Assembly: GCA_031280645.1 (NCBI GenBank)
Contig: JAITGL010000027.1
Location: forward strand, 1-14,045
DNA: 14,045 nucleotides
Direction of reading: 5' to 3'
Source: Tannerellaceae bacterium
GTDB lineage: Bacteria; Bacteroidota; Bacteroidia; Bacteroidales; Tannerellaceae
Below are positions 434 to 14,045 of this stretch, one piece after another (the stretch's first letter is position 1; every line of letters begins with the position of its first letter). Position numbers and translations under genes: made by a program. A model generated the notes under the pieces. It ran no database searches and had not been told where the DNA came from. It saw only the letters and a list, made by a program, of their open reading frames with translations.

Positions 434-465
434 ATTACATACTCTTTTTTTATATGATACAGGGG

Positions 466-551: not shown

Positions 552-560
552 CAGAAAATT

Positions 561-1388: not shown

Positions 1389-1395
1389 GAAGATT

Positions 1396-2154
1396 ATGAA
1401 CAATCAATTTAGCTTTAAACGAGTGGGCTTGCTGATGCGGCTCGACTTTATTTCCTACGGCCGCGAGTTTGTACTGGGTATGAGCGCTATCCCGTTGGTA
1501 TGGTTTACATTGATGTGGCTTGCGAGGCACAACAGCACGTCGGAAATGTCTGAAATATGTTTTACATTAAACGGCCTGCTGGCCTTGATTACTTTTAGCG
1601 GTCATGCGGCGCGTAAAATGTTTAAGGAGAAGCATGCGTTTATGATGACGCCTGCGCTTAACGAAGAGAAGTACGCGAGCCTTATCGCCGAAGGCCTTGT
1701 TTACCTGCTTGTTTCGCAGATAGGATTCTGGCTCGGATCGTTTCTTTGCAAGCTGTGTTTTCCCACAGTTCAGATAGCCGCGTTTCAGGCTTTGTTTTTT
1801 AATATGAATATAAATATCGCGATTACTCTTTTCTTTTGCGTTGCGCTTTACTTTGTGGCTGCGGTGAGCGTGCCTAAGCTATGGTTTATCGTTGCGATAG
1901 TTGCGCCTAATCTTTACGTTGCGCTGCATGTGTTTATACTTTTCCTGCTATCCAATTGCTCTAACTTTTTCGCGGGAGCCATGATAAACGGCAATTTCGG
2001 CAGCAGTAATTCTTTGGAGATGACGGGAGGATCGGATAGCATAGCCCACACGATGCGGATCCTGGTCAACATATATACTCCGGTTATAGGCATATCGAGC
2101 ATAATTTTATTTTACGTTGCATATCTTAAGTTGAAAGAAAAGGAGTTGAAATGA
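1396..2154 (+). CDS. ABC transporter membrane subunit (multi-pass)
   Basis: A 252-residue integral membrane protein, probably the permease partner of the ATPase encoded just upstream. It has about six hydrophobic segments, the clearest being near EFVLGMSAIPLVWFTLMW, LVYLLVSQIGFWLGSFL, IAITLFFCVALYFVAAV, LWFIVAIVAPNLYVALHVF and VIGISSIILFYVAYL, and a lysine-rich C-terminus (KLKEKELK). The ATG at 1396 lies seven bases after the ATPase stop. The frame is open further upstream (to 1315), but that part overlaps the ATPase gene and is not membrane-like, so it is left out. Its stop overlaps the next start (ATGA), which indicates translational coupling with the regulator. The family is inferred from context and topology; no diagnostic motif is visible. 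Confidence 0.8.
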   Translation: MNNQFSFKRVGLLMRLDFISYGREFVLGMSAIPLVWFTLMWLARHNSTSEMSEICFTLNGLLALITFSGHAARKMFKEKHAFMMTPALNEEKYASLIAEGLVYLLVSQIGFWLGSFLCKLCFPTVQIAAFQALFFNMNINIAITLFFCVALYFVAAVSVPKLWFIVAIVAPNLYVALHVFILFLLSNCSNFFAGAMINGNFGSSNSLEMTGGSDSIAHTMRILVNIYTPVIGISSIILFYVAYLKLKEKELK

Positions 2155-2525
2155 GAACCGGAGCATCGTTATTTATCCGTATAGCCGACACCGTATGCGA
2201 CAAAATCCTGAGCGGCGAGTATCAGTCGGACAGTCGCATACCCTCGGTTCGCGATCTGGCGGCCGATATGGAGGTCAATCCCAACACGGTAATGCGCTCG
2301 GTAGAGCGTCTTCAGAGGTACGAGGTTATATACAATAAGCGCGGCGTTGGCTACTTTGTGTCGCCCGACGCTCGCGATAAGATCCACAAGATGCGCCTTG
2401 CCATTTTTTCCGACAGCGTACTCCCTTCGCTTTTCCGCGAAATGGATTTACTGGGCATTGGCATCGGCCATCTTACGGAAGCCTATAAGGTTTATAAATT
2501 ACAGTTGTTAAACCAATCAAATTAA
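2151..2525 (+). CDS. GntR-family transcriptional regulator (YtrA-type, short)
   Basis: A 124-residue DNA-binding protein. Residues ~8-75 form the GntR winged helix: IADTVCDKILSGEY, then the recognition region IPSVRDLAADMEVNPNTVMR, then the wing with RGVGYFV. What remains is a short C-terminal helix region, far smaller than a FadR or HutC effector domain. This is the YtrA layout, in which the regulator commonly represses its own operon for an ABC exporter. The start overlaps the stop of the membrane subunit by four bases (ATGA), so the operon order is ATPase, permease, regulator. The likely operator is near the promoter at 520-551. The inducer is unknown. Confidence 0.92.
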   Translation: MRTGASLFIRIADTVCDKILSGEYQSDSRIPSVRDLAADMEVNPNTVMRSVERLQRYEVIYNKRGVGYFVSPDARDKIHKMRLAIFSDSVLPSLFREMDLLGIGIGHLTEAYKVYKLQLLNQSN

Positions 2526-2533
2526 AACAAATC

Positions 2534-2626
2534 ATGAAACGAAGCAATATAATACTGCTTGCGCTTGGCGTGTTTCTGCTTGTTCTTCCTTATATGATAT
2601 TGCTGGTTTGCTGTATTATATATTAA
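2534..2626 (+). CDS. Small single-pass membrane protein, 30 residues
   Basis: An ATG eight bases after the GntR stop opens a 30-codon frame. It starts MKRSN and continues as one hydrophobic segment (IILLALGVFLLVLPYMILL), ending VCCIIY. The short gap, the good start context (AACAAATCATG) and the positive-inside N-terminus followed by a single helix suggest a translated microprotein, the last gene of the ABC-GntR operon. It may modulate or stabilise the transporter. There is no known family that I can name, and translation is inferred only from layout and composition. After its stop comes an inverted repeat CCGGC (2654-2658)/GCCGG (2674-2678). Confidence 0.5.
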   Translation: MKRSNIILLALGVFLLVLPYMILLVCCIIY

Positions 2627-2723
2627 GGAGTATTATTGCGGCCTGAAAACATGCCGGCTATAATTTATTATTTGCCGGACAGTCTTGCAGCAACTTTAAC
2701 AAGAAAATGAAAAAGCATATAAG

Positions 2724-3485
2724 GTGAACAGTTTACTCTCGCAACTCCCCGCCCAAACTCCTTTTGAGTGGAGCTTATTAGTAGTTACGGCCCTGTTGAT
2801 AGGCATGTCGAAAACGGGCATACAAGGTATAAACATGCTTATGATCCCGCTGATGGCCATAGCTTTCGGAGCGAAGCCATCTACGGGAGTCATACTTCCG
2901 ATGTTATGTTTTTCAGACTTGCTGGCGGTTATTTACTACCGCCGGCAAGCCGAGTGGAAGCATATTGTGCGTCTTTTGCCTGCCGCGATTGCCGGATTCG
3001 GCCTGGCGGTGGCTGTCGACCGCCTCATTCCTCCCGCAGGCTTCCGCATTTTGCTTGCCGGATGCCTGCTGCTTGGTCTTGCAATAATGATTTATGCCGA
3101 ATTGCGCAGGGGGGAGAACAAATTGGCCGGTAGCCGCTGGTACGGCCCTTTGTTTGGCCTTGCCGGAGGGTTTACCACCATGATAGGCAACGCTGCCGGG
3201 CCGGTAATGGCCATATATTTGCTGTCGGTAAAGCTTCCGAAGTATGCTTTTGTTGGTACCAGCGCCTGGTTCTTCCTGGTGGTTAATTATCTGAAGCTGC
3301 CTATACAAATTTATGCCTGGGAGAATATCAATCCCGCAACTCTTACTCTTAACCTTTGCATGATTCCGTTCATGATTGCAGGAGCTTTGTGTGGTATATA
3401 TATTGTAAGGAAGCTGCCTGAAGACGGGTTCAGGAAGGTGATAATCGGGGTAACGGTATTATCAACGCTGATACTGTTATTGTAG
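2724..3485 (+). CDS. TauE/SafE family permease (DUF81)
   Basis: A 253-residue membrane protein of the TauE/SafE family, whose members move sulfite, sulfoacetate or other small organic anions out of the cell; the substrate here cannot be told. It shows the family's two-fold repeat: the first half carries IGMSKTGIQG near residue 27, the second carries GLAGGFTTMIGNAAGPVMAIYLL near residue 147. About eight hydrophobic segments span the length, which is usual for the family. The start is a GTG at 2724. No ATG in frame precedes it, and the next ATG in frame would cut into the first conserved helix. The GTG overlaps the stop of a six-codon ATG frame (2707-2727). A TA-N3-TTTG sequence at 2666-2674 could be a weak promoter; otherwise it may be read from the upstream operon. 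Confidence 0.88.
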   Translation: MNSLLSQLPAQTPFEWSLLVVTALLIGMSKTGIQGINMLMIPLMAIAFGAKPSTGVILPMLCFSDLLAVIYYRRQAEWKHIVRLLPAAIAGFGLAVAVDRLIPPAGFRILLAGCLLLGLAIMIYAELRRGENKLAGSRWYGPLFGLAGGFTTMIGNAAGPVMAIYLLSVKLPKYAFVGTSAWFFLVVNYLKLPIQIYAWENINPATLTLNLCMIPFMIAGALCGIYIVRKLPEDGFRKVIIGVTVLSTLILLL

Positions 3486-3486
3486 G

Positions 3487-3517
3487 CCCGAATGGTAAAG
3501 GCTTTGCCGCGTTCGGG
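3487..3517. repeat. Weak inverted repeat after the permease gene
   Basis: CCCGAA (3487-3492) and TTCGGG (3512-3517) can pair just after the permease stop. A second TTCGGG copy follows at once. The stem is short and has no T run, so terminator activity is doubtful. Confidence 0.25.
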
Positions 3518-3528
3518 GTTCGGGGCGG

Positions 3529-3559
3529 TTGTGCGGATTAAATCCAAGCGATATCTTTG
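3529..3559 (+). promoter_or_regulatory. Bacteroidetes promoter of the gene at 3607
   Basis: TTG (3529-3531), 20 bases of spacing, then TATCTTTG (3552-3559), an exact match to TAnnTTTG. Transcription would start near 3564, inside the right arm of the inverted repeat, and leave a 5' leader of about 40 bases before the ATG at 3607. Confidence 0.65.
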
Positions 3560-3576
3560 CGGCGCTTGGATTTAAT
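3537..3576. repeat. Perfect 14-bp inverted repeat enclosing a -7 box
   Basis: ATTAAATCCAAGCG (3537-3550) and CGCTTGGATTTAAT (3563-3576) are perfectly complementary around a 12-base loop, ATATCTTTGCGG. The loop holds the exact promoter box TATCTTTG. The element may be a terminator for the permease transcript, an operator covering the promoter of the next gene, or both. Confidence 0.8.
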
Positions 3577-3606
3577 TATTTATCGCAAACAATAGATTTT
3601 AACTTC

Positions 3607-4095
3607 ATGAAAAAGCTTAGCAAAAGGGGTTATCAGATACTTAAGATTTTACATATCCTGACGGCCGGCGCATGGATCGGAGCGGTTATTACGGCCATTG
3701 CTTTACTGTTAACACTGAAAGGCGAGTATCTTGCGCGAGATTTGGAGGTTATACTTTTTATCGACTTGGCGCTTTTCATTCCCTGCGCGCTTGCCACCTT
3801 ACTCACGGGCCTGGTTTACTCGATATTTACGCAATGGGGCTTCGTTAAGCATTGGTGGATTATTGTAAAGTACCTGATTACCCTGCTCCCGATTTTCACC
3901 GGCTTCCCGCTGGTGGCAAGCAAGCTATTGGGGATGACGGATATTGTTGGGCGGCTGGGAGCCGGGGCGCTTGCGGATAAGGAGTTCGGAGTGTTGTACA
4001 ATGAATGTTTATTGGGGTTGATTGTTTATCTGGTTTTGTTTTTGTCGGCATATATATTGTCGGTTATCAAGCCGGCGAACAGGAGGAAAAGATAA
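3607..4095 (+). CDS. Small integral membrane protein (DUF2269-like)
   Basis: A 162-residue protein with four hydrophobic segments: ILHILTAGAWIGAVITAIALLL, LFIDLALFIPCALATLLTGLVY, WWIIVKYLITLLPIFTGFPLV and CLLGLIVYLVLFLSAYILSV. It ends in a basic tail (KPANRRKR). The pattern of an early histidine in helix 1 (LKILHIL), W-x-G in AGAWIGA and a W-rich third helix resembles the DUF2269 membrane proteins; that assignment is tentative and the function is unknown. I chose the ATG at 3607 because the promoter -7 box (3552-3559) lies downstream of the more distant in-frame start at 3529, so the longer form could not be made from it. It appears to be a single-gene unit. Confidence 0.78.
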   Translation: MKKLSKRGYQILKILHILTAGAWIGAVITAIALLLTLKGEYLARDLEVILFIDLALFIPCALATLLTGLVYSIFTQWGFVKHWWIIVKYLITLLPIFTGFPLVASKLLGMTDIVGRLGAGALADKEFGVLYNECLLGLIVYLVLFLSAYILSVIKPANRRKR

Positions 4096-4142
4096 TGCTT
4101 CGGAACTTGCTTTGTTGGCCGCAAGAGGGGGCCGGAGGCATT
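4094..4142 (+). terminator. Possible terminator-like stem after the DUF2269-like gene
   Basis: AATGCTTC (4094-4101) pairs with GAGGCATT (4135-4142) allowing one G-U pair, and inside it CTTGC pairs with GCAAG. The stem overlaps the stop codon and is followed by AAGCATTATTAAT, with no clear T run. Termination is plausible but not certain. Confidence 0.35.
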
Positions 4143-4165
4143 AAGCATTATTAATAAGCCGCTCT

Positions 4166-4196
4166 TTTGCGATATTTATGATAGAATTTATCTTTG
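4166..4196 (+). promoter_or_regulatory. Consensus Bacteroidetes promoter of the DUF5686 gene
   Basis: TTTG (4166-4169), 19 bases, TATCTTTG (4189-4196): both boxes match the sigma-ABfr consensus exactly and with the canonical spacing. Transcription should begin at about 4200-4202, only a few bases before the ATG at 4205. The mRNA would then be almost leaderless. Confidence 0.75.
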
Positions 4197-4204
4197 TATC
4201 CGAA

Positions 4205-6790
4205 ATGAAAATGAATTATCTCCATAAAGTATCCGCGCTCTTTGTATTGTTTCTTATACTAACTGTTCCGAGCGTCAGGATTCAAGCGCAAAACATTATA
4301 ACCGCCACAGGTATCGTCAGGGATTCAATAACCGGCGAACCTATCCCATTTGCTTCCGTTGTATTTGAAAATTCCCTCATCGGCGCTATGACCGACGATA
4401 ACGGCCGTTTCACCTTACAGAACAATAAGAATATAACGAAGCTTACAGTAGCCTTCCTTGGATACGAGCAAAAAACGGTTGGCCTCCGCCCCGGACGCAA
4501 CGACAACCTCGACCTCAAGCTCCATCCCAAATCACTCGAACTTGCCGAAGTAGTAATCAAGCCAACGCGCGAGCGATACTCCCGCCGCAACAACCCGGCT
4601 GTCGACCTAATCAGAGCCGTGATTGATCATAAAGACGACAATCGTATCGAAGCCCTGCCCGAATACAAGGTAGAGATGTACGAAAAGCTCTCGCTGGCCC
4701 TTGATAACTTCAATCCCAACTTCGACAGCAACGGATTCATGAAAAAGCTAAAGTTCGTGAAGAACTACATGGACACATCCGAATTTAGCGGACGCCCTAT
4801 CCTGACCGTATCCGTTCGCGAAACCCTGTCGGACATTTATTACAGGAAAAGTCCGCGGTCGAAGAAAACCATCGTCAAAGCAAAGAACCAGCAAGGCATC
4901 GACGAAACGATCGACGAAGGCGGCATCACATCCAACCTCGAGGAGTTCTTCCAGGGAATAAACATCTTTGAGAACAACATCAACTTCCTTTCCAACCGCT
5001 TCGTAAGCCCGCTATCGTCGCTGCTTGCAACTACCTACTACCATTATTATATAATGGACACTGTGACGATAGGCTCCGACCGCTGCGTCGACCTTGCCTT
5101 CGTTCCGGTTAACAGTCAGAGCTACGGATTTACAGGACGCCTGTACATCATGCTCGACAACTATTCGATACGCAAATTCCGCCTCGATATCCCGCGAAAC
5201 ATTAACCTCAACTTTGTAGACAACCTGCGCATCGAGCAGGAGTTTAAACTCGCGCCCGACAGCTCATGGGTTGTAGACGTTGAAAACACCTACGTAAACT
5301 TCTACATGATGGGGCAGCAGCTATACGCCCACCAGCTCCGCACCTACAACAATTACAACTTCGACGTTGCCGAGCGCGACTCTGTGTTCGGGCTGCTCGG
5401 CCCGCTGCACGTTATGTCCGACGCCGTTGACAAACCCGACACGTTTTGGGTGCGCAACCGCCACATACCGCTTAAAGAACGCGAAAACGTGTTAGACGAT
5501 CTGGTACGCGAAATACGCAAGGTGCCAGTGTTTAACGCCATCATTAAAACCGCCGAGATCCTCATCACAGGATATATCCAAACCGGCCCATCGAAAGAGG
5601 AAAACTACTTCGACATCGGCCCCATGAACACCATCTTCAGCGCCAACGAACTCGAAGGATGGCGAATCAGAATAGGAGGCATGACAACCGCCAACCTCTC
5701 CCCCCGCCTCTTCGGAACCGGATACTTAGCCTACGGCATGGACGACCGTACCTTTAAGTACAGCGGACGGCTAACATACAGCTTCGACGAAAAGAAATAC
5801 CACGAAGGCGAATATCCCGTTAACAACCTCTCCCTCCTCCAGGAATACGACGTGTATACCCCCGGGCAAGACTTCCTCTTTACCAGCAAAGACAATATGT
5901 TCGTAGCCCTCAAAGTAGGCGAACCCGTTACGAACATGAACTACGTGCTCAAAACCCTAATCCAATACGAAAAAGACTGGCTTAACGGACTGTCCCTCAA
6001 AACCTGGCTCCGCCGCCAGAACGAAGAAGCCGCCGGAACCCTCGAATACAAACGCATCGACGAAAACGGCAACACCGTTAAAGTACCAAGCATAACCTCC
6101 TCCGAAGCCGGATTCCAACTACGATTCGCACCCGGCGAACGAGCCTACGGAGGACGCAAAGGCAAAAACTCCTTCTTTAACATGTCGAAAGACGCGCCCA
6201 TCGTAAAGCTATCCCACCAACTCGGCATGAAAAACGTTCTCGGAAGCGATTATAACTACAACCGCACCGAGTTCAGCGCCGAGAAACGCATCTGGCTATC
6301 GTCGTTCGGACACATCGACGCACAGCTCAAGGCCGGCAAGATATGGAACAAAGTACCCTTCCCGCTCCTCGTACTCCCCAACACCAACCAATCGCTCACC
6401 ATCCAGCCCGAAGCCTTCCACATGATGAGAGCCCTCGAGTTTGTGGCCGACGAGTACGTATCGCTCAACGCTACCTACTACCTTAAAGGATGGATCCTGA
6501 ACCGCATACCCATAATCCGCTGGCTAAAGTTCCGCGAAGTAGTATCCTTCAACGGCATATACGGACGGCTAAGCAACCTCAGCAACCCCCTCGCCCCCGG
6601 CAACTCCGACCTCTTCATCCTCCCCGAAGGAACCGCCGGCCTCGGCTCAGTTCCATATATGGAAGCCAGCTTCGGACTCGAAAACATCTTTAAGATACTG
6701 CGCGTAGACTATTACCACCGCCTCACCTACCTCGACAATCCCAACACAAAGCGCAGCGGCTTCCGCATCGCCCTCCGCTTCTCATTCTGA
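4205..6790 (+). CDS. DUF5686 / carboxypeptidase-regulatory-like outer-membrane protein
   Basis: A large exported protein (861 residues), typical of Bacteroidetes. Residues 1-29 are a Sec signal peptide (hydrophobic core LFVLFLILTVP, cleavage near IQAQ). A carboxypeptidase D regulatory-like beta-sandwich follows (~residues 30-110, from GIVRDSITGEPIPFASV to EVVIKP). The rest is DUF5686, beginning near RNNPAVDLIRAVIDHKDDNR, and the second half has the alternating pattern of an outer-membrane beta-barrel. The C-terminus IALRFSF ends in phenylalanine, as barrel proteins do. The role is unknown; structurally it resembles TonB-dependent receptor relatives but lacks a plug. An ATG at 4178 lies before the predicted transcription start and is rejected; 4211 is a close alternative. 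Synonymous codons are strongly C-ending on this strand. tsaB follows after four bases. Confidence 0.9.
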   Translation: MKMNYLHKVSALFVLFLILTVPSVRIQAQNIITATGIVRDSITGEPIPFASVVFENSLIGAMTDDNGRFTLQNNKNITKLTVAFLGYEQKTVGLRPGRNDNLDLKLHPKSLELAEVVIKPTRERYSRRNNPAVDLIRAVIDHKDDNRIEALPEYKVEMYEKLSLALDNFNPNFDSNGFMKKLKFVKNYMDTSEFSGRPILTVSVRETLSDIYYRKSPRSKKTIVKAKNQQGIDETIDEGGITSNLEEFFQGINIFENNINFLSNRFVSPLSSLLATTYYHYYIMDTVTIGSDRCVDLAFVPVNSQSYGFTGRLYIMLDNYSIRKFRLDIPRNINLNFVDNLRIEQEFKLAPDSSWVVDVENTYVNFYMMGQQLYAHQLRTYNNYNFDVAERDSVFGLLGPLHVMSDAVDKPDTFWVRNRHIPLKERENVLDDLVREIRKVPVFNAIIKTAEILITGYIQTGPSKEENYFDIGPMNTIFSANELEGWRIRIGGMTTANLSPRLFGTGYLAYGMDDRTFKYSGRLTYSFDEKKYHEGEYPVNNLSLLQEYDVYTPGQDFLFTSKDNMFVALKVGEPVTNMNYVLKTLIQYEKDWLNGLSLKTWLRRQNEEAAGTLEYKRIDENGNTVKVPSITSSEAGFQLRFAPGERAYGGRKGKNSFFNMSKDAPIVKLSHQLGMKNVLGSDYNYNRTEFSAEKRIWLSSFGHIDAQLKAGKIWNKVPFPLLVLPNTNQSLTIQPEAFHMMRALEFVADEYVSLNATYYLKGWILNRIPIIRWLKFREVVSFNGIYGRLSNLSNPLAPGNSDLFILPEGTAGLGSVPYMEASFGLENIFKILRVDYYHRLTYLDNPNTKRSGFRIALRFSF

Positions 6791-6794
6791 CCGC

Positions 6795-7472
6795 ATGCCC
6801 GCCATACTGCACATCGAAACCTCCACAACGGCATGCTCCGTAGCCCTCGGCGTTAACGGAAGCCTCACAGGCGAGCAAACCTCCGACAGCGGCCCCTCAC
6901 ACTCCGCCCTTGCAGGAGTATTTGTGAAAAACATCCTCGGCCTGCTGCCAGGTAGCAAGCCCGACGCCATAGCCGTAAGCTCCGGGCCCGGATCGTATAC
7001 CGGTCTCCGCATCGGGCTCTCGCTGGCCAAAGGACTATGTTTCGGGTACGACATACCCCTCATAGCCGTCCCCACCCTACTCCTCCTCGCATCCCAAGCC
7101 GTAGCCGCAGTCTCCGCCGCCGAGCCCAACGCCCCCGCAGCCCTCTATTGCCCCATGATCGACGCCCGGCGCATGGAAGTTTACGCCGCCGTATACAGCC
7201 GCAACCTCGGCGAGCTGCGGCCCGCCCACGCCGAAATCGTCGACCCCCAAAGCTATTCCGACTTACTCAACGGCGGCCCGGTATACTTTTGCGGCAACGG
7301 ATCCTCCAAATGCCGCGAAATAATCGCCCACCCCAACGCCCTCTTTATCGACAACCTGCATCCATCGGCCAAAGCCATGATACCGCTTGCCGAAGCCGCA
7401 TGGAAAGAAGGCCGGTTTGAAGACGCGGCCTATTTCGAGCCTTTTTACCTCAAGCAGTGGGGAGAGAAATAA
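6795..7472 (+). CDS. tsaB: tRNA t6A biosynthesis protein TsaB (YeaZ)
   Basis: TsaB is the inactive ASKHA-fold partner that binds the catalytic subunit TsaD, and with TsaE transfers threonylcarbamoyl (made by TsaC) to A37 of ANN-decoding tRNAs in the cytoplasm. The 225-residue product is full length for the family. Its N-terminal strand pair is ILHIETSTTACSVALG, and the hallmark SSGPGSYTGLRIGLSLAKGL lies near residue 62. The segment YCPMIDARRMEVYAAVY near residue 119 is also typical. The start lies four bases after the DUF5686 stop, so the two are almost certainly co-transcribed from 4166-4196. The 3' end overlaps an inverted repeat at 7457-7494. Confidence 0.95.
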   Translation: MPAILHIETSTTACSVALGVNGSLTGEQTSDSGPSHSALAGVFVKNILGLLPGSKPDAIAVSSGPGSYTGLRIGLSLAKGLCFGYDIPLIAVPTLLLLASQAVAAVSAAEPNAPAALYCPMIDARRMEVYAAVYSRNLGELRPAHAEIVDPQSYSDLLNGGPVYFCGNGSSKCREIIAHPNALFIDNLHPSAKAMIPLAEAAWKEGRFEDAAYFEPFYLKQWGEK

Positions 7473-7494
7473 CCGCTTAATCCGTTCTCCCCAC
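7457..7494 (+). terminator. Inverted repeat spanning the tsaB stop
   Basis: GTGGGGAGA (7457-7465) and TCTCCCCAC (7486-7494) form a perfect 9-bp stem around a 20-base loop containing the tsaB stop codon. It is followed by CTTGCTGTTTCT, a weak pyrimidine stretch. It probably marks or protects the end of the transcript. From 7495 to 7692 I see no gene and no clear element. Confidence 0.45.
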
Positions 7495-7692
7495 CTTGCT
7501 GTTTCTCATCGCCGCGGCCGTCGCGTCGCATCAGGATTTATAAAAAGGAACAGGCCCCGAAGCTATTGTATAATAAGATTTTCATAACGGATTCGAGCCC
7601 GTGCGGTCCGGCCCGCAGAACCTTCCCCCAACGCCATTTCGGCAAAGCCGCTTTCAATCAGTATGAGTTTGCCGCTCCGGCAGCTCGTTGTA

Positions 7693-8061
7693 GAACGTAG
7701 AAAACCTGCGGAAAAATTCCGGACGCTTTCAGCGAACGTGGAAAGTCTGCGGAAAATCTCCGGACGTTTGCCGTAAACCAAGAAATCGTCCGGAATATTT
7801 TCGGGCGATTTCATTAAACGTGGAAAGCTTCCGGAAAATTTACGGACAGTTTCAATGAATAAAGAAAGCTTGCGGAAAATTTTCGGATATTTTTCATGAA
7901 CAAGAAAAGCTTCCGGAAAATTTACGGACGATTTAAATGAATAAGGAAAGTATCCGGAGAATTTCCTGACGGATTTCATGAACAAGGACGGCTTGCGAAA
8001 AATTTCCGCAGAGTTTCCATGAACTAAGGCAGCCCGCAGAGGTTTTCCCCGACGGTTCTCT
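7693..8061. repeat. Diverged tandem array with exact 41-bp period
   Basis: Nine units begin at 7693, 7734, 7775, 7816, 7857, 7898, 7939, 7980 and 8021, each exactly 41 bases after the last. The common pattern starts GAACAAGG or a variant, then AGCTTCCGGAAAATTTACGGA, the core of which is the dyad TCCG-N9-CGGA (exact in the units at 7816 and 7898), then CAGTTTCAAT. Units differ at many bases, yet no insertion or deletion has changed the spacing. A minus-strand frame (7563-7985) runs through it, but since 41 is not a multiple of three that frame reads successive units in three phases, so I do not call a gene. Flanking bases up to 8148 hold nothing else I recognise. Confidence 0.85.
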
Positions 8062-8148
8062 CAAATCCGGAAGCCTTCCCGTAAGTTATCCGAAGAAATC
8101 ACTGTAATTCGGCGCCACCCCCCCTGCATCTCCTCCCCAAATATGAAA

Positions 8149-8197
8149 AGCCTTTGCTATATTTGCGCAGCTCCCTTGCCGGAGGCGGGCGTTGGGG
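8149..8197 (+). repeat. 49-bp leader block, copy 1 (before solenoid gene 1)
   Basis: This block recurs at 8729-8777 with three base differences. It starts AGCCTTTGCTATATTTGCGC, contains a CTCC-CTTGCC-GGAG stem, and ends GGCGGGCGTTGGGG. It carries the promoter box at 8158-8165. Confidence 0.85.
8158..8165 (+). promoter_or_regulatory. Probable promoter of the solenoid gene cluster
   Basis: TATATTTG matches the Bacteroidetes -7 box TAnnTTTG exactly. Transcription would start near 8170, about 60 bases before the ATG at 8232. There is no clear -33 box about 20 bases upstream. The second copy of the leader has TATATTTA at 8738-8745, one base off consensus. Confidence 0.5.
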
Positions 8198-8204
8198 GAT
8201 AATA

Positions 8205-8231
8205 TTTAATCTTTTAAAATGTAATACGGAT
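8205..8231 (+). promoter_or_regulatory. Conserved 27-base leader, copy 1
   Basis: A leader present immediately before all five solenoid genes, also at 8787-8813, 9957-9983, 10624-10650 and 12013-12039. The first 13 bases, TTTAATCTTTTAA, are identical in all five; the rest follows the pattern nATGTAATACCnAn. A/T-rich sequence just before the start favours ribosome binding in Bacteroidetes. All copies contain an ATG followed at once by a stop codon (ATGTAA four times, ATGTGA in the last), seven bases before the gene start. Confidence 0.7.
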
Positions 8232-8729
8232 ATGAAACTTTTTGCGAAATGGAATAGTAAGGATGGCTGGAAGGCGAAGGAGGCCATTGAGAAAATTAAA
8301 AACCAAAAGAAACTTGCGAGGGTTGCCGTGAAAGCGCGGTCGTGGGAGGCGCGGATAACGGCTCTTAATAAGCTGAAGGATGCGGAGCGCCAGCAGCTAC
8401 TGACCCGGATTGCAACAGAGGATAAAGATTGGGAGATTCGCCGGGCGGCGGTAAAGCTACTGGTTGCCGCCAACAACTGGCCGCTGCTGAAGGAGATCAT
8501 AGCCAAGTATGGAAAGGGTTTGAAAAGCGAATCCGAAGACGACAGGAGTAGTTACAAATCGCTTTTGCTGTTCCTTTATGAAGAGGTCAATGCGCCGCTC
8601 AAATGGCAGATCGCCTCATATAGTGGGACTATTATTGAATATCCGAAGGGAGAATATGTTCATTGTTTTGATACCTACGAAGATGAATTCATTCAGACAG
8701 CCCCCGAACGCCGCTTCCATGTTTCCTAA
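8232..8729 (+). CDS. HEAT/LRV-like solenoid protein 1 (2 repeats)
   Basis: The first of five paralogs, 165 residues, probably cytoplasmic (no signal peptide or membrane segment). It has an N-cap (MKLFAKWNSKDG, then a helix with KAKEAIEKI), two helical repeats (KLARVAVKARSWEARITALNKL; LLTRIATEDKDWEIRRAAVKLL), and a C-cap starting PLLKEIIAKYGKGL and containing LLLFLYEEVNAPLKWQIASYSGTIIE. The tail is PERRFHVS. The repeat (hydrophobic helix, D-x-D-W, V/I-R-x-A-A-V) resembles HEAT-like and LRV repeats, which make alpha-solenoids for protein binding. No catalytic motif is seen. The ATG at 8232 is the position shared by all five genes; the frame is open to 8154, but the upstream part is leader DNA with no ATG at the place used by the longer forms of genes 3-5. 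Confidence 0.8.
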   Translation: MKLFAKWNSKDGWKAKEAIEKIKNQKKLARVAVKARSWEARITALNKLKDAERQQLLTRIATEDKDWEIRRAAVKLLVAANNWPLLKEIIAKYGKGLKSESEDDRSSYKSLLLFLYEEVNAPLKWQIASYSGTIIEYPKGEYVHCFDTYEDEFIQTAPERRFHVS

Positions 8730-8777
8730 GCCTTCGCTATATTTACGCGGCTCCCTTGCCGGAGGCGGGCGTTGGGG
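8729..8777 (+). repeat. 49-bp leader block, copy 2 (before solenoid gene 2)
   Basis: Differs at three of 49 positions from 8149-8197 and begins on the last base of the gene 1 stop codon. It shows that gene and leader were duplicated together. The -7-like box here is TATATTTA. Confidence 0.85.
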
Positions 8778-8786
8778 CAAGCTCTG

Positions 8787-8813
8787 TTTAATCTTTTAAT
8801 ATGTAATACCGAT
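8787..8813 (+). promoter_or_regulatory. Conserved 27-base leader, copy 2
   Basis: TTTAATCTTTTAA followed by TATGTAATACCGAT, directly before the ATG at 8814. The position that is ATG before genes 3-5 is CTG here (8784). Confidence 0.7.
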
Positions 8814-9944
8814 ATGGAACGTTTTGGTAAATGGTACAGTTTTGATGATTGCAAGGCGGCAGCCGCCGTCAGGAAAATTACAAATCAGAAGACGCTTGCG
8901 AGAATTGCCGTTGAGGCGCGGTCGACGGAGGCGAAGGTTGCGGCTATTAAAAAGCTGACGGTAGCGGAGCATCTGCCGCTGTTGATCCGGATTGCAACGG
9001 AAGATGGTTGGGCTTGTTCCCGGGCAGTGATAGAGACGCTGATAGCCGCGGATCATCAGCATATGTTGGCCGAGATTGTAACAAAGAAAACAAATTGGTG
9101 GACTCTGGCGGCAGTAGAAAATCTGATTGCAGAGGAGCATCAGCAGTTATTGGCCGAGATTGCGACAACGGATACAGATTCTTATGTTCGCCGGGCGGCG
9201 GTAGACAATCTGATTGCAGATGAGCGCCGGCAGCTATTGGCCGAGATTGCGACAAAGGATACATATTGGAAGGTTCGCCTGGCGGCGGTAAAGAAGCTGA
9301 TAGCCGCAGAGTTCCGACCGTTATTGGCCAGGATTGCGGCAACGGATGAAGATTGGGTGGTTCGCAAAGCGGCGGCAGAGCTACTGATAGCCGAGGAGAG
9401 TCAAGCTCTACTGGCTGAGATTGCAGTAACGGACGAGCATCCGGATGTTCGCCGGGCGGCGGTAAACAAACTGATAGCCGAGGATCATCAGCAGCTATTG
9501 ATCAGGATTGCAACAACCGACGAAGATTGTAATGTTTGCCGGGCGGCAGTAAGAAAACTTACCGATCAAACATGCTTGGCTCATGTAGCCTGGAATGCAA
9601 AGGAAGCAGGCGCTCGACAGGCGGCGGCAAGAAAACTGATAGCCGGGGAGCATCAGCCGCTATTGGTCAGGATCGCAATAAAGGATAAAGATTGGCTGGT
9701 TCGCCGGGCGGCGGTAGAGCAACTGGCAGCCCTCAACAACCGGCCGCTGCTGAAGGAGATCATAGCCGAGTATAGAAAGGCTTTGCAATGCGAATCGGAA
9801 GAGACTAAGGATCGTTACGTATTTCTTCTGCGGTTCATTTATAACGCAGTCGACTCGCCTCTCAAAGAGCAGATCGCCTCATATAACGGGACCCAAGAGG
9901 GGTTCTATTTTCCTGAACCTTCAGACGCTGCCCTCTCCAATTAG
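8814..9944 (+). CDS. HEAT/LRV-like solenoid protein 2 (10 repeats)
   Basis: Second paralog, 376 residues. N-cap MERFGKWYSFDDC, then about ten repeats of 28-29 residues, for example LLAEIATTDTDSYVRRAAV and LLARIAATDEDWVVRKAAA, then the C-cap PLLKEIIAEYRKAL with LRFIYNAVDSPLKEQIASYNG. The tail is FPEPSDAALSN, not the RRF type of protein 1. Repeats 2 and 3 lack the usual V-R (ACSRAVIETL, WWTLAAVENL). Repeats 8 and 9 hold a TDQTCLAHVAWNA variant that also occurs in protein 4 (NDQTCLADVALNA), so repeat blocks were exchanged or inherited together. It is most likely a longer version of the same scaffold; the partner is unknown. Confidence 0.82.
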   Translation: MERFGKWYSFDDCKAAAAVRKITNQKTLARIAVEARSTEAKVAAIKKLTVAEHLPLLIRIATEDGWACSRAVIETLIAADHQHMLAEIVTKKTNWWTLAAVENLIAEEHQQLLAEIATTDTDSYVRRAAVDNLIADERRQLLAEIATKDTYWKVRLAAVKKLIAAEFRPLLARIAATDEDWVVRKAAAELLIAEESQALLAEIAVTDEHPDVRRAAVNKLIAEDHQQLLIRIATTDEDCNVCRAAVRKLTDQTCLAHVAWNAKEAGARQAAARKLIAGEHQPLLVRIAIKDKDWLVRRAAVEQLAALNNRPLLKEIIAEYRKALQCESEETKDRYVFLLRFIYNAVDSPLKEQIASYNGTQEGFYFPEPSDAALSN

Positions 9945-9947
9945 GAG
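9935..9947 (+). repeat. Small inverted repeat at the gene 2/3 junction
   Basis: CTCC-AATTA-GGAG overlaps the stop codon of gene 2 (9942-9944). GGAG lies six bases before the ATG at 9954 and looks like a Shine-Dalgarno sequence that pairing would hide. Confidence 0.45.
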
Positions 9948-9956
9948 TAAGCAATG

Positions 9957-9983
9957 TTTAATCTTTTAATATGTAAAACCAAG
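9957..9983 (+). promoter_or_regulatory. Conserved 27-base leader, copy 3
   Basis: TTTAATCTTTTAA followed by TATGTAAAACCAAG, directly before the ATG at 9984. An ATG at 9954 is in frame just ahead of it. Confidence 0.7.
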
Positions 9984-10613
9984 ATGAAACTTGTTGCCAG
10001 ATGGAACAGTAAGGACGGCTTTAAGGCAGACAAGGCCGTCGGGAGAATTAATAATCAGGAGAAGCTTGCGAGGATTGCCGTTGAGGCGCGGTCGTATTGG
10101 GCGCGCGAGGCGGCTGTTGAGAAACTCACGGCGGAGGATCATCAGACGCTATTGGCCCATATTGCGACAACGGATCAGCATTGGTTTGTCCGCGAGCTGG
10201 CAATAGAAAAACTAACGCCTGCAGATTATCAGCCGTTATTGGCCGAGATTGCGACAAAGGATTGCGACAAGCATGTTCGCCGGGCGGCGGTAGAGAAACT
10301 GGTAGCCGAGGAGAATCAGTCGCTACTGGTCGAGATTGCAACAAAGGATAAAGATCCTTGGGTTTGCGAAACGGCGCTAAAACAACTGATATCTGCCAAC
10401 AATCGGTCGCTGCCGAAGGAGATAATCGCTATGTATGGAAAAGGTTTGAACGGCAAATCCGAATACGACAGGGATCATTACGCACATCTTTTGCGGTTCA
10501 TTTATGAAAAAGTAGACGCGCCGCTCAAAGAGCAGATAGCCTCATTTAACGGGATTATTATTCAAGAGGAGCTTCGATTTCCTGAACCCTCTGACGTTAA
10601 CCTTCCCAATTAG
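9984..10613 (+). CDS. HEAT/LRV-like solenoid protein 3 (4 repeats)
   Basis: Third paralog, 209 residues. N-cap MKLVARWNSKDGFKADKAV, four repeats (KLARIAVEARSYWAREAAV; LLAHIATTDQHWFVRELAI; LLAEIATKDCDKHVRRAAV; LLVEIATKDKDPWVCETAL), then the C-cap KEIIAMYGKGL and LLRFIYEKVDAPLKEQIASFNG. The tail FPEPSDVNLPN matches protein 2, so these two are a closer pair by their ends. An in-frame ATG at 9954 with GGAG six bases upstream would add ten residues; I prefer 9984 because all five genes share that position, but the longer form is a real possibility here. Confidence 0.8.
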   Translation: MKLVARWNSKDGFKADKAVGRINNQEKLARIAVEARSYWAREAAVEKLTAEDHQTLLAHIATTDQHWFVRELAIEKLTPADYQPLLAEIATKDCDKHVRRAAVEKLVAEENQSLLVEIATKDKDPWVCETALKQLISANNRSLPKEIIAMYGKGLNGKSEYDRDHYAHLLRFIYEKVDAPLKEQIASFNGIIIQEELRFPEPSDVNLPN

Positions 10614-10618
10614 TGGAA
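10603..10618 (+). repeat. Small inverted repeat at the gene 3/4 junction
   Basis: TTCC-N8-GGAA spans the stop codon of gene 3 (10611-10613) and ends two bases before the ATG at 10621. It is weaker than the other junction stems. Confidence 0.3.
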
Positions 10619-10623
10619 CAATG

Positions 10624-10650
10624 TTTAATCTTTTAATATGTAATACCAAC
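10624..10650 (+). promoter_or_regulatory. Conserved 27-base leader, copy 4
   Basis: TTTAATCTTTTAA followed by TATGTAATACCAAC, directly before the ATG at 10651; an ATG at 10621 is in frame. Confidence 0.7.
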
Positions 10651-11973
10651 ATGAAACTTTTTGCTAAATGGAACAGTAAGGACGGCGAGAAAGCTATGGA
10701 AGCCGTCGGGCAAATTAAAGATCAAAAGAAGCTTGCGAAGATTGCCGTGGAGGCGTGGTCGTGGGAGGCGCGCAATGCGGCTGTTAAAAGACTTGCAGCC
10801 GCGAATAATCAAACGCTATTAGCCGAGATTACGAAAACGGATCCTAACGAAAATGTTTGCGAATCGGCAATAGAAAAACTTAACGATCAAACATGCTTGG
10901 CCGATGTAGCCCTGAATGCAATATACAGGAACATGCGAACAAAGGCGGTAGAAAAACTGATAGCGGAAGAGCATCAGCAGCTACTGGCCCGGATTGCGGC
11001 AACGGATACCGATTATTATGTTCGCCTTTTAGCAGTAAAAAAACTGATAGACGAGGACTATCAACCGCTATTGGTACGGATTGCGACAACGGATGAAAAT
11101 GATAATGTTCGCCGGTTTGCAATATTTCAACTGAAAGCGGAGGAACACCAGCCGTTATTGGCCCAGATTGCGAAAGCGGATGACAATTATAGTGTTCGCA
11201 TAGCGGCGGTAGAGAGACTGATTACTGAGATGCATCTGCCGCTATTGGTGGAGATTGCAACATATAAACATACAGGTCATTATTTAAAAAAAGCCGTAAT
11301 AGAGAAACTGGTAACCGCCAACAATCAGCCGCTATTGGCCCGGCTTGCTACAAAGGATAATGATTTAGAAGTTCGCTTGGCGGCGGTAGAAAAACTGATA
11401 GCAGAAGAGCATCAGCAGCTATTGGCCAAGATTGCGGAGATGGATAATGATTTGGAGGTTCGCTTGGCGGCGGTAGAGAAACTGATAGCAGAAGAGCATC
11501 AGCAACTATTGGCCAAGATTGCGGAAATGGATAATGTTCGTGACGATCGTGATGTTCGCAAGGGGGCAGTAGAACAATTTAGCAGTAGAGTATCCTCCAC
11601 CGATGTAGATCAAAAGGCGATAAGCGAGAATATCCGCCTGACGGCAATAAAGAAACTGATAGCCGAGGAGCATCAGCAGCTATTGGCCCGAATTGCGACA
11701 ACAGATAAAGATTGGAATATTCGCCTGGCGGCAATAGAGAAACTGGTAACCGTAAACAACCAGCCGCTGCTGAAGGAGATAATCGCTATATATGGAGAAG
11801 GTTTGAACAGCAAATCCGAAAATGATAGGAGTCATTACGCATATCTTTTGCAGTTCATCTATAATAACGTCGACGCTTCGCTTAAAGAACATATCGCCTT
11901 ATATAACGGAACTATTATTGAACATGATTATGACGCGCCGGCAACCCCCCAACGCCGATTCAAGGTTCCTTAA
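10651..11973 (+). CDS. HEAT/LRV-like solenoid protein 4 (11 repeats)
   Basis: Fourth and longest paralog, 440 residues. N-cap MKLFAKWNSKDGEKAMEAV, about eleven repeats, C-cap PLLKEIIAIYGEGL with LLQFIYNNVDASLKEHIALYNG, tail PQRRFKVP (the same type as protein 1). Repeats 8 and 9 are almost identical in DNA (87-bp units at 11371-11544), a recent tandem duplication. The tenth repeat is interrupted by an insertion with a different character (FSSRVSSTDVDQKAISEN), which would make a loop or a distorted repeat in the solenoid. Repeats 2-3 share the NDQTCLADVALNA block with protein 2. An in-frame ATG at 10621 would add ten residues. Confidence 0.82.
   Translation: MKLFAKWNSKDGEKAMEAVGQIKDQKKLAKIAVEAWSWEARNAAVKRLAAANNQTLLAEITKTDPNENVCESAIEKLNDQTCLADVALNAIYRNMRTKAVEKLIAEEHQQLLARIAATDTDYYVRLLAVKKLIDEDYQPLLVRIATTDENDNVRRFAIFQLKAEEHQPLLAQIAKADDNYSVRIAAVERLITEMHLPLLVEIATYKHTGHYLKKAVIEKLVTANNQPLLARLATKDNDLEVRLAAVEKLIAEEHQQLLAKIAEMDNDLEVRLAAVEKLIAEEHQQLLAKIAEMDNVRDDRDVRKGAVEQFSSRVSSTDVDQKAISENIRLTAIKKLIAEEHQQLLARIATTDKDWNIRLAAIEKLVTVNNQPLLKEIIAIYGEGLNSKSENDRSHYAYLLQFIYNNVDASLKEHIALYNGTIIEHDYDAPATPQRRFKVP
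11371..11544 (+). repeat. Near-identical 87-bp tandem duplication in solenoid gene 4
   Basis: Two 87-base units (11371-11457 and 11458-11544), each starting GTTCGCTTGGCGGCGGTAGA, encode one 29-residue repeat each. Up to about 11535 they differ at three bases, then the second copy runs into the insertion. This shows repeat number changing by tandem duplication in frame. Confidence 0.85.
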
Positions 11974-11989
11974 ACCCTCGGCCATTATC

Positions 11990-12007
11990 CTCCCCTATTA
12001 AGGGGAG
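11990..12007 (+). repeat. Inverted repeat at the gene 4/5 junction
   Basis: CTCCCCT-ATTA-AGGGGAG is a perfect 7-bp stem with a 4-base loop, 16 bases after the gene 4 stop. The GGGGAG arm ends two bases before the ATG at 12010. It could act as a weak terminator or hide the ribosome site. Confidence 0.55.
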
Positions 12008-12012
12008 CAATG

Positions 12013-12039
12013 TTTAATCTTTTAAGATGTGACACTAAC
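12013..12039 (+). promoter_or_regulatory. Conserved 27-base leader, copy 5
   Basis: The same 13 invariant bases TTTAATCTTTTAA, then GATGTGACACTAAC, the most diverged copy. It still holds an ATG followed by a stop (TGA) before the ATG at 12040. Confidence 0.65.
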
Positions 12040-12456
12040 ATGAAACTTTTTGCTAAATGGAACAGTAAGGACGGCGAGAGGGCGTCGACCGCCGTCGGGA
12101 AAATTAACGATCAGAAGAAGCTTGCGATGATTGCCCTTGAGGCGCGGTCGTGGGAGGCGCGCAAGGCGGCTGTTGAGAAGCTGATAGCTGCAAACGATCA
12201 GCCGGCGCTGAAGGCTATCATTGCCGAGTATGGAAGGGTTTTATATGGGAATCAGAAATGCGAAGAACTTTTACTTTTCATCTACAATAGATGTAATACG
12301 TTGCTTCAGGAACAAATCGTATCGTATAACGGAACGGTTATTGAATCCGGACGGCCGGCAAGGAGCGAAGTTGTCAGGGAGTTTCATAACGGCAGCTTCT
12401 GCGATGTTGATTACTCGGAGGAAGCAATACCCGACCGCCGATTCCACGCCTTTTAA
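12040..12456 (+). CDS. HEAT/LRV-like solenoid protein 5 (1 repeat)
   Basis: Last and shortest paralog, 138 residues. N-cap MKLFAKWNSKDGERASTAV, a single repeat (KLAMIALEARSWEARKAAVEKL), then directly the C-cap ALKAIIAEYGRVL with LLLFIYNRCNTLLQEQIVSYNG. The tail has an extra acidic stretch (DVDYSEEAIPDRRFHAF) before the RRF end shared with proteins 1 and 4. The C-cap is shortened compared with the others: the S-E-x-D-R segment is missing after GRVL. With only one repeat it can hardly form a solenoid, so it may be a minimal cap-cap protein, perhaps an interaction partner of its longer relatives. An in-frame ATG at 12010 is the alternative start. Confidence 0.78.
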   Translation: MKLFAKWNSKDGERASTAVGKINDQKKLAMIALEARSWEARKAAVEKLIAANDQPALKAIIAEYGRVLYGNQKCEELLLFIYNRCNTLLQEQIVSYNGTVIESGRPARSEVVREFHNGSFCDVDYSEEAIPDRRFHAF

Positions 12457-12476
12457 ACCTTCCCTCAAAACACGCT

Positions 12477-12514
12477 AAAAGGGCCGCCGACATCGGATTG
12501 TCGGCGGCCCTTTT
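12477..12514. terminator. Strong bidirectional Rho-independent terminator
   Basis: AAAAGGGCCGCCGAC (12477-12491) and GTCGGCGGCCCTTTT (12500-12514) form a perfect 15-bp stem with an 8-base loop. The GC core is flanked by A on the left and T on the right, so it can stop both the solenoid operon (plus) and gnd (minus, stop codon 23 bases away). Confidence 0.92.
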
Positions 12515-12537
12515 CAATTGCGGGACATCTTGGCCTC

Positions 12538-13986
12538 TTACACAACGTAGGTGGAGGCTGAGGTGCTTCCGCCTTTGCCTGTCCAGTTGGTGTGGAAGAA
12601 CTCTCCGCGAGGGCGATCGATGCGCTCGTAGGTGTGAGCTCCGAAGTAGTCGCGCTGGGCTTGGAGGAGGTTGGCCGGCAGGCGGGCCGAGCGGTAGCCG
12701 TCGAAGTAGCAGAGGGCGGCGCTGAGGGCAGGGACGGGGACGCCGCTTGCGATAGCCGTGGTCACCACCTTGCGCCATCCGTCTTGCGCGCCGAGCACTT
12801 TCTCCTTGAAGAAGGGATCGAGCAGCAGGTTGGTGAGGTCGGGATTGCGGTCGAAGGCCTCCTTTATCTTGCCGAGGAAGACCGATCGGATGATGCATCC
12901 GCCGCGCCACATTAGGGCTATGCCTCCGTTGTTCAGATTCCAGCCGTACTCCTTGGCGGCCTCGCGCATCAGGAGGTATCCCTGCGCGTACGACACTATC
13001 TTGGATGCGTAGAGGGCTTGGCGGAGGGCTTCGAGCAGCTCTGAGCGATCGGCTGCGACGGGCGCCGGGCCTGGAAGTTGTGCCGATGCCACGACGCGTT
13101 CGTCCTTCTGGGCCGATAGGCAGCGGGCGAATACAGCCTCGCCGATGAGGGTGAGGGGCACTCCGAGGTCGAGGGCAGCCACGCCTGTCCACTTTCCGGT
13201 ACCCTTCTGTCCGGCGGTGTCGAGGATGGTGTCGACAACCGTCTCGCCCGCTTCATTGCGGTAGGCAAGGATATCGCGGGTGATTTCGATGAGGTAGCTT
13301 CCCAGCTCGCCTTCGTTCCAGTCGCGGAAAACTTCGTGCATCTCGGCGGCGGTCATTCCCAGCACATCCTTCATTATTTGGTATGCTTCGCAGATGAGCT
13401 GCATGTCGCCATACTCAATTCCGTTGTGCACCATCTTCACGAAATGTCCGGCGCCATTTTCGCCAACCCAGTCGCAGCATGGAGCTCCGTCGGCCTTGGC
13501 GCATATTGATTGGAAGATGGGCCGAACGGCCTCCCATGCGGCTACTGATCCTCCGGGCATCATGGATGGGCCGTTGAGGGCTCCTTCTTCGCCGCCGGAT
13601 ACTCCGGTTCCGACGTAGAGCAGTCCTTTACTCTCAACGTAGGCCGTGCGGCGGATAGTGTCGGGGAAGTGCGTGTTGCCGCCGTCGATGATGATGTCGC
13701 CGGGTTCGAGATGAGGTATGATCTGTTCGATAAAGTCGTCAACAGCTTTGCCTGCCTTCACGAGGAGCATCACCTTGCGCGGTCGCTTGAGGGATTGGCA
13801 TAGCTCTGCGATGGAATGCGCCGCGATGAAGTTCTTGCCCTTGCCGCGTCCGCCAACGAAGTCGTCAACCTTGGATACGGTGCGATTGAAAACGGCAACC
13901 GTGAATCCTTTGCTTTCCATGTTTAATACGAGGTTCTCGCCCATTACGGCCAAACCTATAAGTCCGATGTCTGCTAAATTGTTCAT
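12538..13986 (-). CDS. gnd: 6-phosphogluconate dehydrogenase, decarboxylating
   Basis: Oxidises and decarboxylates 6-phosphogluconate to ribulose 5-phosphate with NAD(P)+ in the oxidative pentose phosphate pathway; a cytoplasmic homodimer in known members. The N-terminal Rossmann motif is IGLIGLAVMGENLVLNM followed by FNRT, which contacts the cofactor phosphate in NADP-type enzymes. The substrate site shows VGTGVSGGEEGALNGPSMMPGG, then GAGHFVKMVHNGIEYGDMQ with the catalytic lysine and the substrate-binding HN. GTGKWT lies in the helical domain, and the C-terminus has YFGAHTYERIDRPRGEFFHTNW. The 482-residue length is normal. The frame also allows ATGs at 13995 and 13989; I chose 13986 because homology begins at ADIGLIG. 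A TAACTTTT (14007-14000) upstream resembles a -7 box. Confidence 0.96.
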   Translation of the reverse strand: MNNLADIGLIGLAVMGENLVLNMESKGFTVAVFNRTVSKVDDFVGGRGKGKNFIAAHSIAELCQSLKRPRKVMLLVKAGKAVDDFIEQIIPHLEPGDIIIDGGNTHFPDTIRRTAYVESKGLLYVGTGVSGGEEGALNGPSMMPGGSVAAWEAVRPIFQSICAKADGAPCCDWVGENGAGHFVKMVHNGIEYGDMQLICEAYQIMKDVLGMTAAEMHEVFRDWNEGELGSYLIEITRDILAYRNEAGETVVDTILDTAGQKGTGKWTGVAALDLGVPLTLIGEAVFARCLSAQKDERVVASAQLPGPAPVAADRSELLEALRQALYASKIVSYAQGYLLMREAAKEYGWNLNNGGIALMWRGGCIIRSVFLGKIKEAFDRNPDLTNLLLDPFFKEKVLGAQDGWRKVVTTAIASGVPVPALSAALCYFDGYRSARLPANLLQAQRDYFGAHTYERIDRPRGEFFHTNWTGKGGSTSASTYVV

Positions 13987-14045
13987 CATTATCATTATTA
14001 AAAGTTATACTACTGTGAATCTTAATTTCTTTAGAGCCTCTTCCA

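Follow-up and report, generated by a model that had tools for sequence, protein, structure and literature searches.

What does a bacterium do with five neighbouring genes whose products share both ends and differ in the number of repeats between them? This question is raised by a 14,045-nt stretch of a Tannerellaceae bacterium (GCA_031280645.1, contig JAITGL010000027.1, positions 1–14,045; hereafter, the window), in which five open reading frames (ORFs), A to E, lie head to tail on the plus strand between a tsaB-like gene (6795–7472) and a convergent gnd gene (12538–13995). We propose that the locus is an operon of five HEAT-repeat adaptors resembling the designed alphaRep proteins, and that these adaptors are the maturase-free paralogues within a larger family that also has enzyme-linked members. 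We assign this reading a probability of about 0.5.

All five proteins start with a common N-cap (MKLFAKWNSKDG...), which ends in a 26-residue unit, and close with a common C-cap (...LLKEIIAxYG...LLxFIYxxxxxxLKEQIASYNGT) followed by a tail. The ORFs and alignments agree with the earlier note on this DNA, which had described five tandem genes with shared caps and 2, 10, 4, 11 and 1 repeats. With gaps filled and the N-cap unit included, there are two units in A (8232–8729; 165 residues), 10 in B (8814–9944; 376 residues), four in C (9984–10613; 209 residues), 12 in D (10651–11973; 440 residues) and one in E (12040–12456; 138 residues), D having a degenerate unit near residue 313 in addition to 11 clear ones. 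E is the minimal member, in which the 26-residue unit of the N-cap is the only one and stands between the N-cap helix and the C-cap. Most internal units do have the 29 residues that had been ascribed to all of them; besides the N-cap, 26-residue units are found in B and D, with cores at residues 252 and 80, respectively. Tandem repeats are also present at the DNA level, and adjacent units of D are 88% matched at 11324–11536. In a scan with a score matrix derived from 16 window units, and hence partly in-sample (the unit of E lies outside those 16), the best unit of each protein scored 38.9–68.2 and the weakest listed unit 8.3, whereas 300 shuffles of the pooled protein sequence yielded at most 13.7. 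Because the best units score so far above the shuffle maximum, a chance origin of the units is excluded.

The fold is that of HEAT proteins. B, C and D exceed the gathering score of Pfam HEAT_2, 27.7, with 59.0, 30.1 and 53.5 bits, respectively, A stays below it with 19.6 bits, and E has no match; A and E are assigned to the HEAT family through the shared caps. No match to Pfam LRV was obtained for A–E at an E-value of 0.1, and of the original label 'HEAT/LRV-like' only the first half is retained. AlphaFold predicts B (predicted local distance difference test score, pLDDT, 91.7) as an alpha-solenoid of stacked helix pairs with 25 helices of at least four residues, and E (pLDDT 87.2 in the best of five models) as the caps plus one unit. 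In the Foldseek and VIA structure libraries, many HEAT and armadillo proteins were matched, which share the fold and indicate no function. Neither a signal peptide nor a membrane segment was noticed in A–E when the sequences were inspected by eye. The caps are mostly constrained, the ratio of non-synonymous to synonymous substitution rates (dN/dS) being 0.22–0.94 in 15 of 16 pairs, with C-caps compared among A–D since E has a gap; the exception is the N-cap pair B–E (1.48).

Within the units, variability is position-specific. In an alignment of 17 of the 29 window units (18 regular, with one irregular left out), unit positions 8, 9, 16, 25 and 29 are invariant, whereas positions 17, 19 and 20 carry 8 to 11 residue types; position 23 has five types yet the second-highest proportion of non-synonymous differences (pN). 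The alphaRep library, as described in excerpts of PMC3754942, was randomised at positions 18, 19, 22, 23, 26 and 30, and the contacts of alphaRep A3 given there include Trp60, Trp91, Val98, Trp121, Phe122, Ile125, Phe129 and Trp153. These eight contacts lie one or two residues before a VR motif, or are the second and sixth residues after its V. Alignment and a fitted offset of nine place alphaRep positions 18, 19, 22, 23 and 26 at unit positions 19, 20, 23, 24 and 27, and the comparison covers these five, position 30 falling outside it. Mean entropy in the five alphaRep columns versus the other 19 is 2.49 versus 1.29 in the window (permutation P 0.007; 24 distinct units), 3.05 versus 1.85 in other Bacteroidales loci (P 0.010; 139 distinct units) and 2.43 versus 1.17 in Puniceicoccales loci (P 0.002; 63 distinct units). 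In each of the three sets, of the four columns that vary most, three are alphaRep positions. Equally variable exceptions are unit position 17 (window, Bacteroidales) or 18 (Puniceicoccales), and unit position 24 (alphaRep 23) varies little. For unit pairs at least 75% identical in DNA (45 of 276 pairs in the window), the ratio of non-synonymous to synonymous differences (pN/pS) in alphaRep columns versus the rest is 1.05 versus 0.71 in the window, 1.49 versus 0.49 in loci L061 and L064 combined, 1.82 versus 0.91 in 26-residue Bacteroidales proteins and 0.63 versus 0.45 in Puniceicoccales. Since the alphaRep positions were themselves picked from natural variability, the entropy excess points to a shared surface logic and is no proof of selection. 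The agreement nevertheless strengthens the initial idea that the solenoids present a binding surface.

These observations are consistent with a simple mechanism. Each protein would consist of an N-cap, 1 to 12 helix-pair units stacked into an alpha-solenoid, a C-cap and a short tail. As many hypervariable residues fall where alphaRep has the residues of its inner face, each paralogue would be expected to bind a different partner, over a different length. Repeat number would shift as whole units are gained and lost, with the caps and the translation leader staying fixed. If this is true, what the synthetic alphaRep binder libraries provide by design also exists naturally in bacteria, as sets of HEAT proteins in which the ends are constant, the units can be exchanged and the inner face varies.

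Comparison of units at the DNA level and of homologues supports the last step. The units compared were those of the window (19 of 29, five N-cap units and five under the score threshold being left out) and of two loci, each with two adjacent genes of the same subfamily, L061 and L064. The closest DNA relative lies within the window for 18 of the 19 window units (in another gene for 12, in the same gene for six), in the same genome for all 16 L061 units and in the same genome for 9 of 18 L064 units. One of the L061 genes, L061b, carries a recent internal duplication, judging by two pairs of unit cores that lie 139 residues apart and have DNA identities of 97% and 92%. The two genes of L061 have about 6 and 13 units and those of L064 have 10 and 11, while proteins P0016, P0017 and P0029, probably from one contig (12313 bases), have about 22, 15 and 7, and P0030 has 6. 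Repeat number in the subfamily is thus not fixed, and the earlier idea of constant ends with a solenoid of diversified length holds up. Matches to our profile A2 were found in 17 of 123 genomes of the bacterial family and in 26 of 393 sampled from the order, with only a small number of candidates scored in each genome in the order and phylum searches. By the unit scan, 9 of the 27 Bacteroidales loci read have at least two such genes. Two variants extend the range of architectures. A Puniceicoccales protein of 1230 residues (L070:3635–7327) has 29 unit-scan hits, and its genome contains several HEAT genes of this type and gave no match to the two-headed enzyme described below. In P0134 (L062:4939–5832), three C-cap-like modules were seen by eye instead of HEAT units, which suggests that the caps too can be multiplied. 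An origin in a phage, plasmid or other mobile element was considered and rejected: of 115 viral-contig stretches that matched the search pattern none encoded a confirmed A2 relative, and protein C has no match in phage or plasmid records.

L061 belongs to G001, the Tannerellaceae metagenome-assembled genome (MAG) Pc512_bin25. Its gnd is 95% identical to that of the window but its tsaB only 61–63%, so G001 is a relative and not the same species. The order of genes from an ABC transporter to tsaB is kept in G001 over seven genes with 61–87% identity, two of which we take to be CopD-like and DUF5686-like. No HEAT gene was detected in G001 between tsaB and the contig end or in the first 18 kb of the gnd contig; the HEAT cluster therefore sits elsewhere in that genome, and its window-type pair, L061, adjoins a gene of the Beta-lactamase family.

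G001 also contains HEAT family genes of a second kind. At loci L062 and L063, they adjoin a large enzyme with two radical S-adenosylmethionine (SAM)/SPASM halves, whereas no radical SAM/SPASM gene is present in the 14-kb window. The NCBIfam family TIGR04083 (cut-off 300) is matched by the L063 enzyme with 377.5 bits, and just under the cut-off by those of L062 (299.6) and of L065 in genome G002 (299.2). A search with TIGR04083 that was independent of HEAT genes matched 112 of 123 family genomes at an E-value of 0.001; five loci top the ranking with 258–305 bits (G001:C74, G028:C1, G002:C155, G020:C33 and G001:C15; the next has 158), and all five adjoin A2 matches. With profile A4 of the two-headed enzyme, at 1e-90, only G001 (two loci) and G300 were found among 393 genomes of the order, and G001 and two new loci, in G808 and G837, among 395 genomes of the phylum. 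This gives eight enzyme loci (L062, L063, L065, L107, L108, L116, L151 and L152). The enzyme led first to those of G028, G020, G808 and G837. HEAT genes led first to both G001 loci and the G002 locus, which the enzyme searches then recovered, while the G300 locus was found through HEAT and formed part of the A4 profile. In all eight, including the four first found via the enzyme, a HEAT-type gene lies on the same strand, −4 to 104 nt from the enzyme gene. The enzymes have 725–801 residues in seven loci; in the eighth, G837, the frame is split (554 residues plus another ORF) and the contig ends within the HEAT gene.

The HEAT identity of these neighbours is uneven. Pfam scores are above the gathering threshold for those of G300, G808 and G837, while the ones scanned from L063, L107 and L108 remain under it but give two to three unit-scan hits, one of the two in L107 having no Pfam match at all. 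P0134 and P0135 of L062, of which P0135 is adjacent to the enzyme, lack a Pfam HEAT match and were joined to the family by cap homology, and the L065 neighbour was joined through profile A2. Direct homology to the window proteins is detectable: A and P0134 share 46% identity over 50 residues and C and P0136, the HEAT protein of L063, 37% over 170 columns, and P0135 is homologous to most of E (31% identity, 136 columns, BLASTP 7e-18). The Puniceicoccales lineage gave no A4 match in 79 family genomes (1e-60) or in 327 phylum genomes (1e-90); it nevertheless has HEAT genes, one with a His-x-Asp tail. The earlier note had stated that the cluster contains no enzyme, toxin or transposase, and none is present among the five genes; its description as self-contained does not carry over to the family, in which relatives adjoin the radical SAM/SPASM enzyme.

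The enzyme-linked proteins also differ from those of the window in their C-termini. The last 60 residues of the 14 neighbour proteins at the eight loci contain 47 His-x-Asp motifs (mean 7.75 and maximum 16 in 2000 shuffles) and 18 cysteines. At least two motifs are present in 12 of the 14, and none in P0133 and L108b. There are no His-x-Asp motifs in the tails of nine window-type proteins whose context was read and includes no two-headed enzyme (A–E, L061 and L064), and three motifs in all in the four of unknown context (P0016, P0017, P0029 and P0030). These four were pooled with the nine in one tail comparison, which left out L108b, L151 and L152; the 14-protein count takes all. Taken alone, the tail in G808 stands out only mildly (225 of 5000 shuffles). 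In the wider family, related caps would thus be combined with a His-x-Asp/Cys tail that the adjoining enzyme probably modifies, the solenoid serving as address or leader and the tail as the modified part. Since the window has neither the enzyme nor such tails, its proteins are best read as maturase-free and binding-only; they would keep the address part and have lost the modified tail, or never have had it. Tentatively, we suggest that the HEAT solenoids are leaders or carriers in a new system akin to ribosomally synthesized and post-translationally modified peptides (RiPPs), in which the two-headed enzyme modifies the His-x-Asp/Cys tail and the window holds a maturase-free repertoire, or one served in trans. 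Several tails weigh against a strict rule. His-x-Asp tails are also found in L067 and L070, which have no two-headed enzyme in the 12 and 14 kb read, respectively, and in P0003, P0058, P0066, P0084 and P0115, the context of which is unknown. A sequence search with the tail of P0003 (residues 205–270) returned only itself, by a method that requires exact shared words and hence shows little.

In the alternative that fares best, a radical SAM maturase whose gene lies at another place in the genome would act on A–E as its substrates or carriers, their short tails, some of the form RRFxVP, being modified or docked in trans. G001 demonstrates that both kinds can coexist, since it has the unlinked pair L061 and also the enzyme-linked loci L062 and L063, and the ends of the tails are alike in the two kinds (KRFLIP and RHFFIP versus RRFRVP). 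In the window, alignment places RRFHVS at the end of A (8709–8726), RRFKVP at the end of D (11953–11970) and RRFHAF at the end of E (12436–12453), all on the plus strand, and the tails of A and E have cysteine beside acidic residues. However, none of the five tails contains His-x-Asp, B and C end in FPEPSDAALSN and FPEPSDVNLPN rather than in RRF, and the last 60 residues of C and D are devoid of cysteine. We consider modification in trans unlikely and prefer to view A–E as maturase-free adaptors. RRFxVP as a genome-wide tag was not supported; a DNA pattern for it had 12 matches, three in each of four genomes, versus four for the reversed control, and two of these matches fall on the L061 HEAT genes.

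Other genes near family members are recorded here as observations in their own right. The radical SAM gene of L067 was rejected as a HEAT partner, as it is single-headed and adjoins a gene with a Cys-rich tail. The product of the latter, a 469-residue protein with a CTC-repeat tail (L067:5031–7910), lies near the HEAT cluster, beside the PapB-like radical SAM gene and an ankyrin-repeat gene, and is possibly a ranthipeptide-type precursor. Genes for a B12-binding radical SAM protein, a small protein (120–133 residues; not listed in L065) and an acyltransferase-like protein are repeatedly found in the vicinity of HEAT genes of G001, G002 and G010 (L062:8749–11001, L065:3384–6176, L073 and L109), as identified with Pfam in L062 and L073 and by eye in the rest. 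In both G808 and G837, a small gene pair stands beside the two-headed radical SAM gene (L151:7334–8146 and L152:3160–3957); we take it to be a DUF1778-like and GNAT-like, toxin–antitoxin-like pair.

The layout of the window locus is that of a putative operon. A block of about 50 nt (TTTGCTATATTTGC...GGAGGCGGGCGTTGGGG), read from the sequence at 8149–8198 upstream of A and in a second copy at 8729–8777 upstream of B (both plus strand), stands before these two of the five genes only and appears promoter-like; its part TTTGCTATATTTG is also found upstream of the HEAT gene of L063 in G001. A 30-nt leader, in A TTTAATCTTTTAA.. at 8202–8231 (plus strand), recurs before all five start codons. The 30 nt preceding ATG have 77–93% pairwise identity among the paralogues, versus 23–43% for the 30 nt before them, and in 9 of 10 pairs the leader is more similar than the first 144 coding nucleotides (70–85%). 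Intergenic gaps are 84 (A–B), 39 (B–C), 37 (C–D) and 66 nt (D–E). Between E and gnd, a GC-rich hairpin followed by TTTT (12481–12514, plus strand) resembles an intrinsic terminator, and a single transcript from A or B through E is likely. In C, D and E an alternative in-frame ATG lies 10 codons upstream; because the same codon is ATA or CTG in A and B, the MKLF/MERF start is the more likely one. No RNA family in Rfam scored above its gathering threshold in the window. Two minisatellite arrays are present, at 1–230 (42-bp unit, 5.5 copies) and, directly upstream of the cluster, at 7709–8029 (41-bp unit, 7.8 copies). Repetitive intergenic ORF translations are found in the window and also in the relative G001 (locus L001). 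Other window genes, searched against Pfam or NCBIfam and not always both, encode an ABC transporter, a GntR-type regulator, a TauE transporter, the tsaB-like protein, Gnd and a TonB-receptor-like protein, and two have no match; PADLOC and PHROGs were applied to A–E.

Three further explanations are improbable. One is that A–E are immunity, antitoxin or decoy proteins that neutralise a range of toxins or phage proteins. An immunity-like role was among the suggestions of the earlier note, and immunity arrays typically consist of diversified paralogues in tandem; PADLOC did give two matches among A–E, both partial and weak (14.6 and 18.5 bits), none of them convincing. However, no toxin, delivery, secretion or defence gene was found among the window proteins searched in these 14 kb, C has no match in phage and plasmid collections, and viral contigs gave no confirmed relatives; no evidence for an immunity-like role was found. 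It is equally doubtful that A–E are symbiosis effectors acting on a gut protist or insect host through HEAT repeats that mimic eukaryotic scaffolds. Six of seven relatives are MAGs recorded under the names Tannerellaceae, Tannerella, Bacteroidales or Puniceicoccales, presumably termite-gut isolates, and the ankyrin-repeat gene near the L067 cluster would be in keeping with such a role, but neither signal peptides nor membrane segments were apparent on inspection by eye, and no secretion gene is among the window proteins searched. A largely non-adaptive expansion, with repeats and genes multiplying by recombination under weak constraint, would fit the pN/pS near 1 at variable sites, the reduction of E to one unit and the minisatellites, but is hard to reconcile with mostly constrained caps, five intact frames, a conserved leader and the invariant framework positions of the 17 regular units.

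A HEAT-type gene beside a two-headed enzyme of the peptide-maturase type, and with it a RiPP-like system, is possibly new. In the open-licence literature, no description was found of this HEAT family, judging by titles and the first lines of abstracts, of HEAT repeats together with radical SAM, SPASM and RiPP, or of TIGR04083 together with radical SAM. Publications joining HEAT repeat, radical SAM and gene cluster, one of them an eLife paper on conflict systems, appeared unrelated, and the main text of a Bacteroidales RiPP-mining paper, in the portion available, mentions neither HEAT nor TIGR04083. Within that literature, the combination may be unpublished, although this is not certain.

Among known families, HEAT and HEAT_2 (Pfam PF02985 and PF13646) share the fold and repeat signature with A–E, but they name a fold only, while the window subfamily has its own N-cap (KWNSKDG), C-cap, tail and tandem paralogues. 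TIGR04083 and PapB-type maturases (NCBIfam) are similar in that such enzymes adjoin family members in sister genomes; those of the relatives have two radical SAM/SPASM halves and HEAT-type neighbours, and the window has none. The His-Xaa-Ser system (TIGR03978, HxsB) likewise combines a radical SAM maturase with repeated His-x motifs in what we take to be its target, but the motif here is His-x-Asp, the carrier is a HEAT protein, and the three two-headed enzymes tested score 117–123 bits versus a cut-off of 370. Proteusin RiPPs, in the sections of PMC10858898 available, have a large folded leader and a modified C-terminal segment, as is proposed for the enzyme-linked relatives; here, the folded part is a HEAT solenoid, modification is only proposed, and the window members are without a candidate core. 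If the proposal is correct, RiPP-like systems would include one with a full repeat protein as carrier. The window proteins themselves resemble alphaRep (PMC3754942, in excerpts; PDB 4zv6, 3ltj and 6ft5), with its HEAT-like units, fixed caps, variable unit number and variability around the VR motif. The alphaRep proteins are designed and randomised and have longer units, whereas the family described here is natural, with units of 26 or 29 residues and a C-cap that is followed by a tail.

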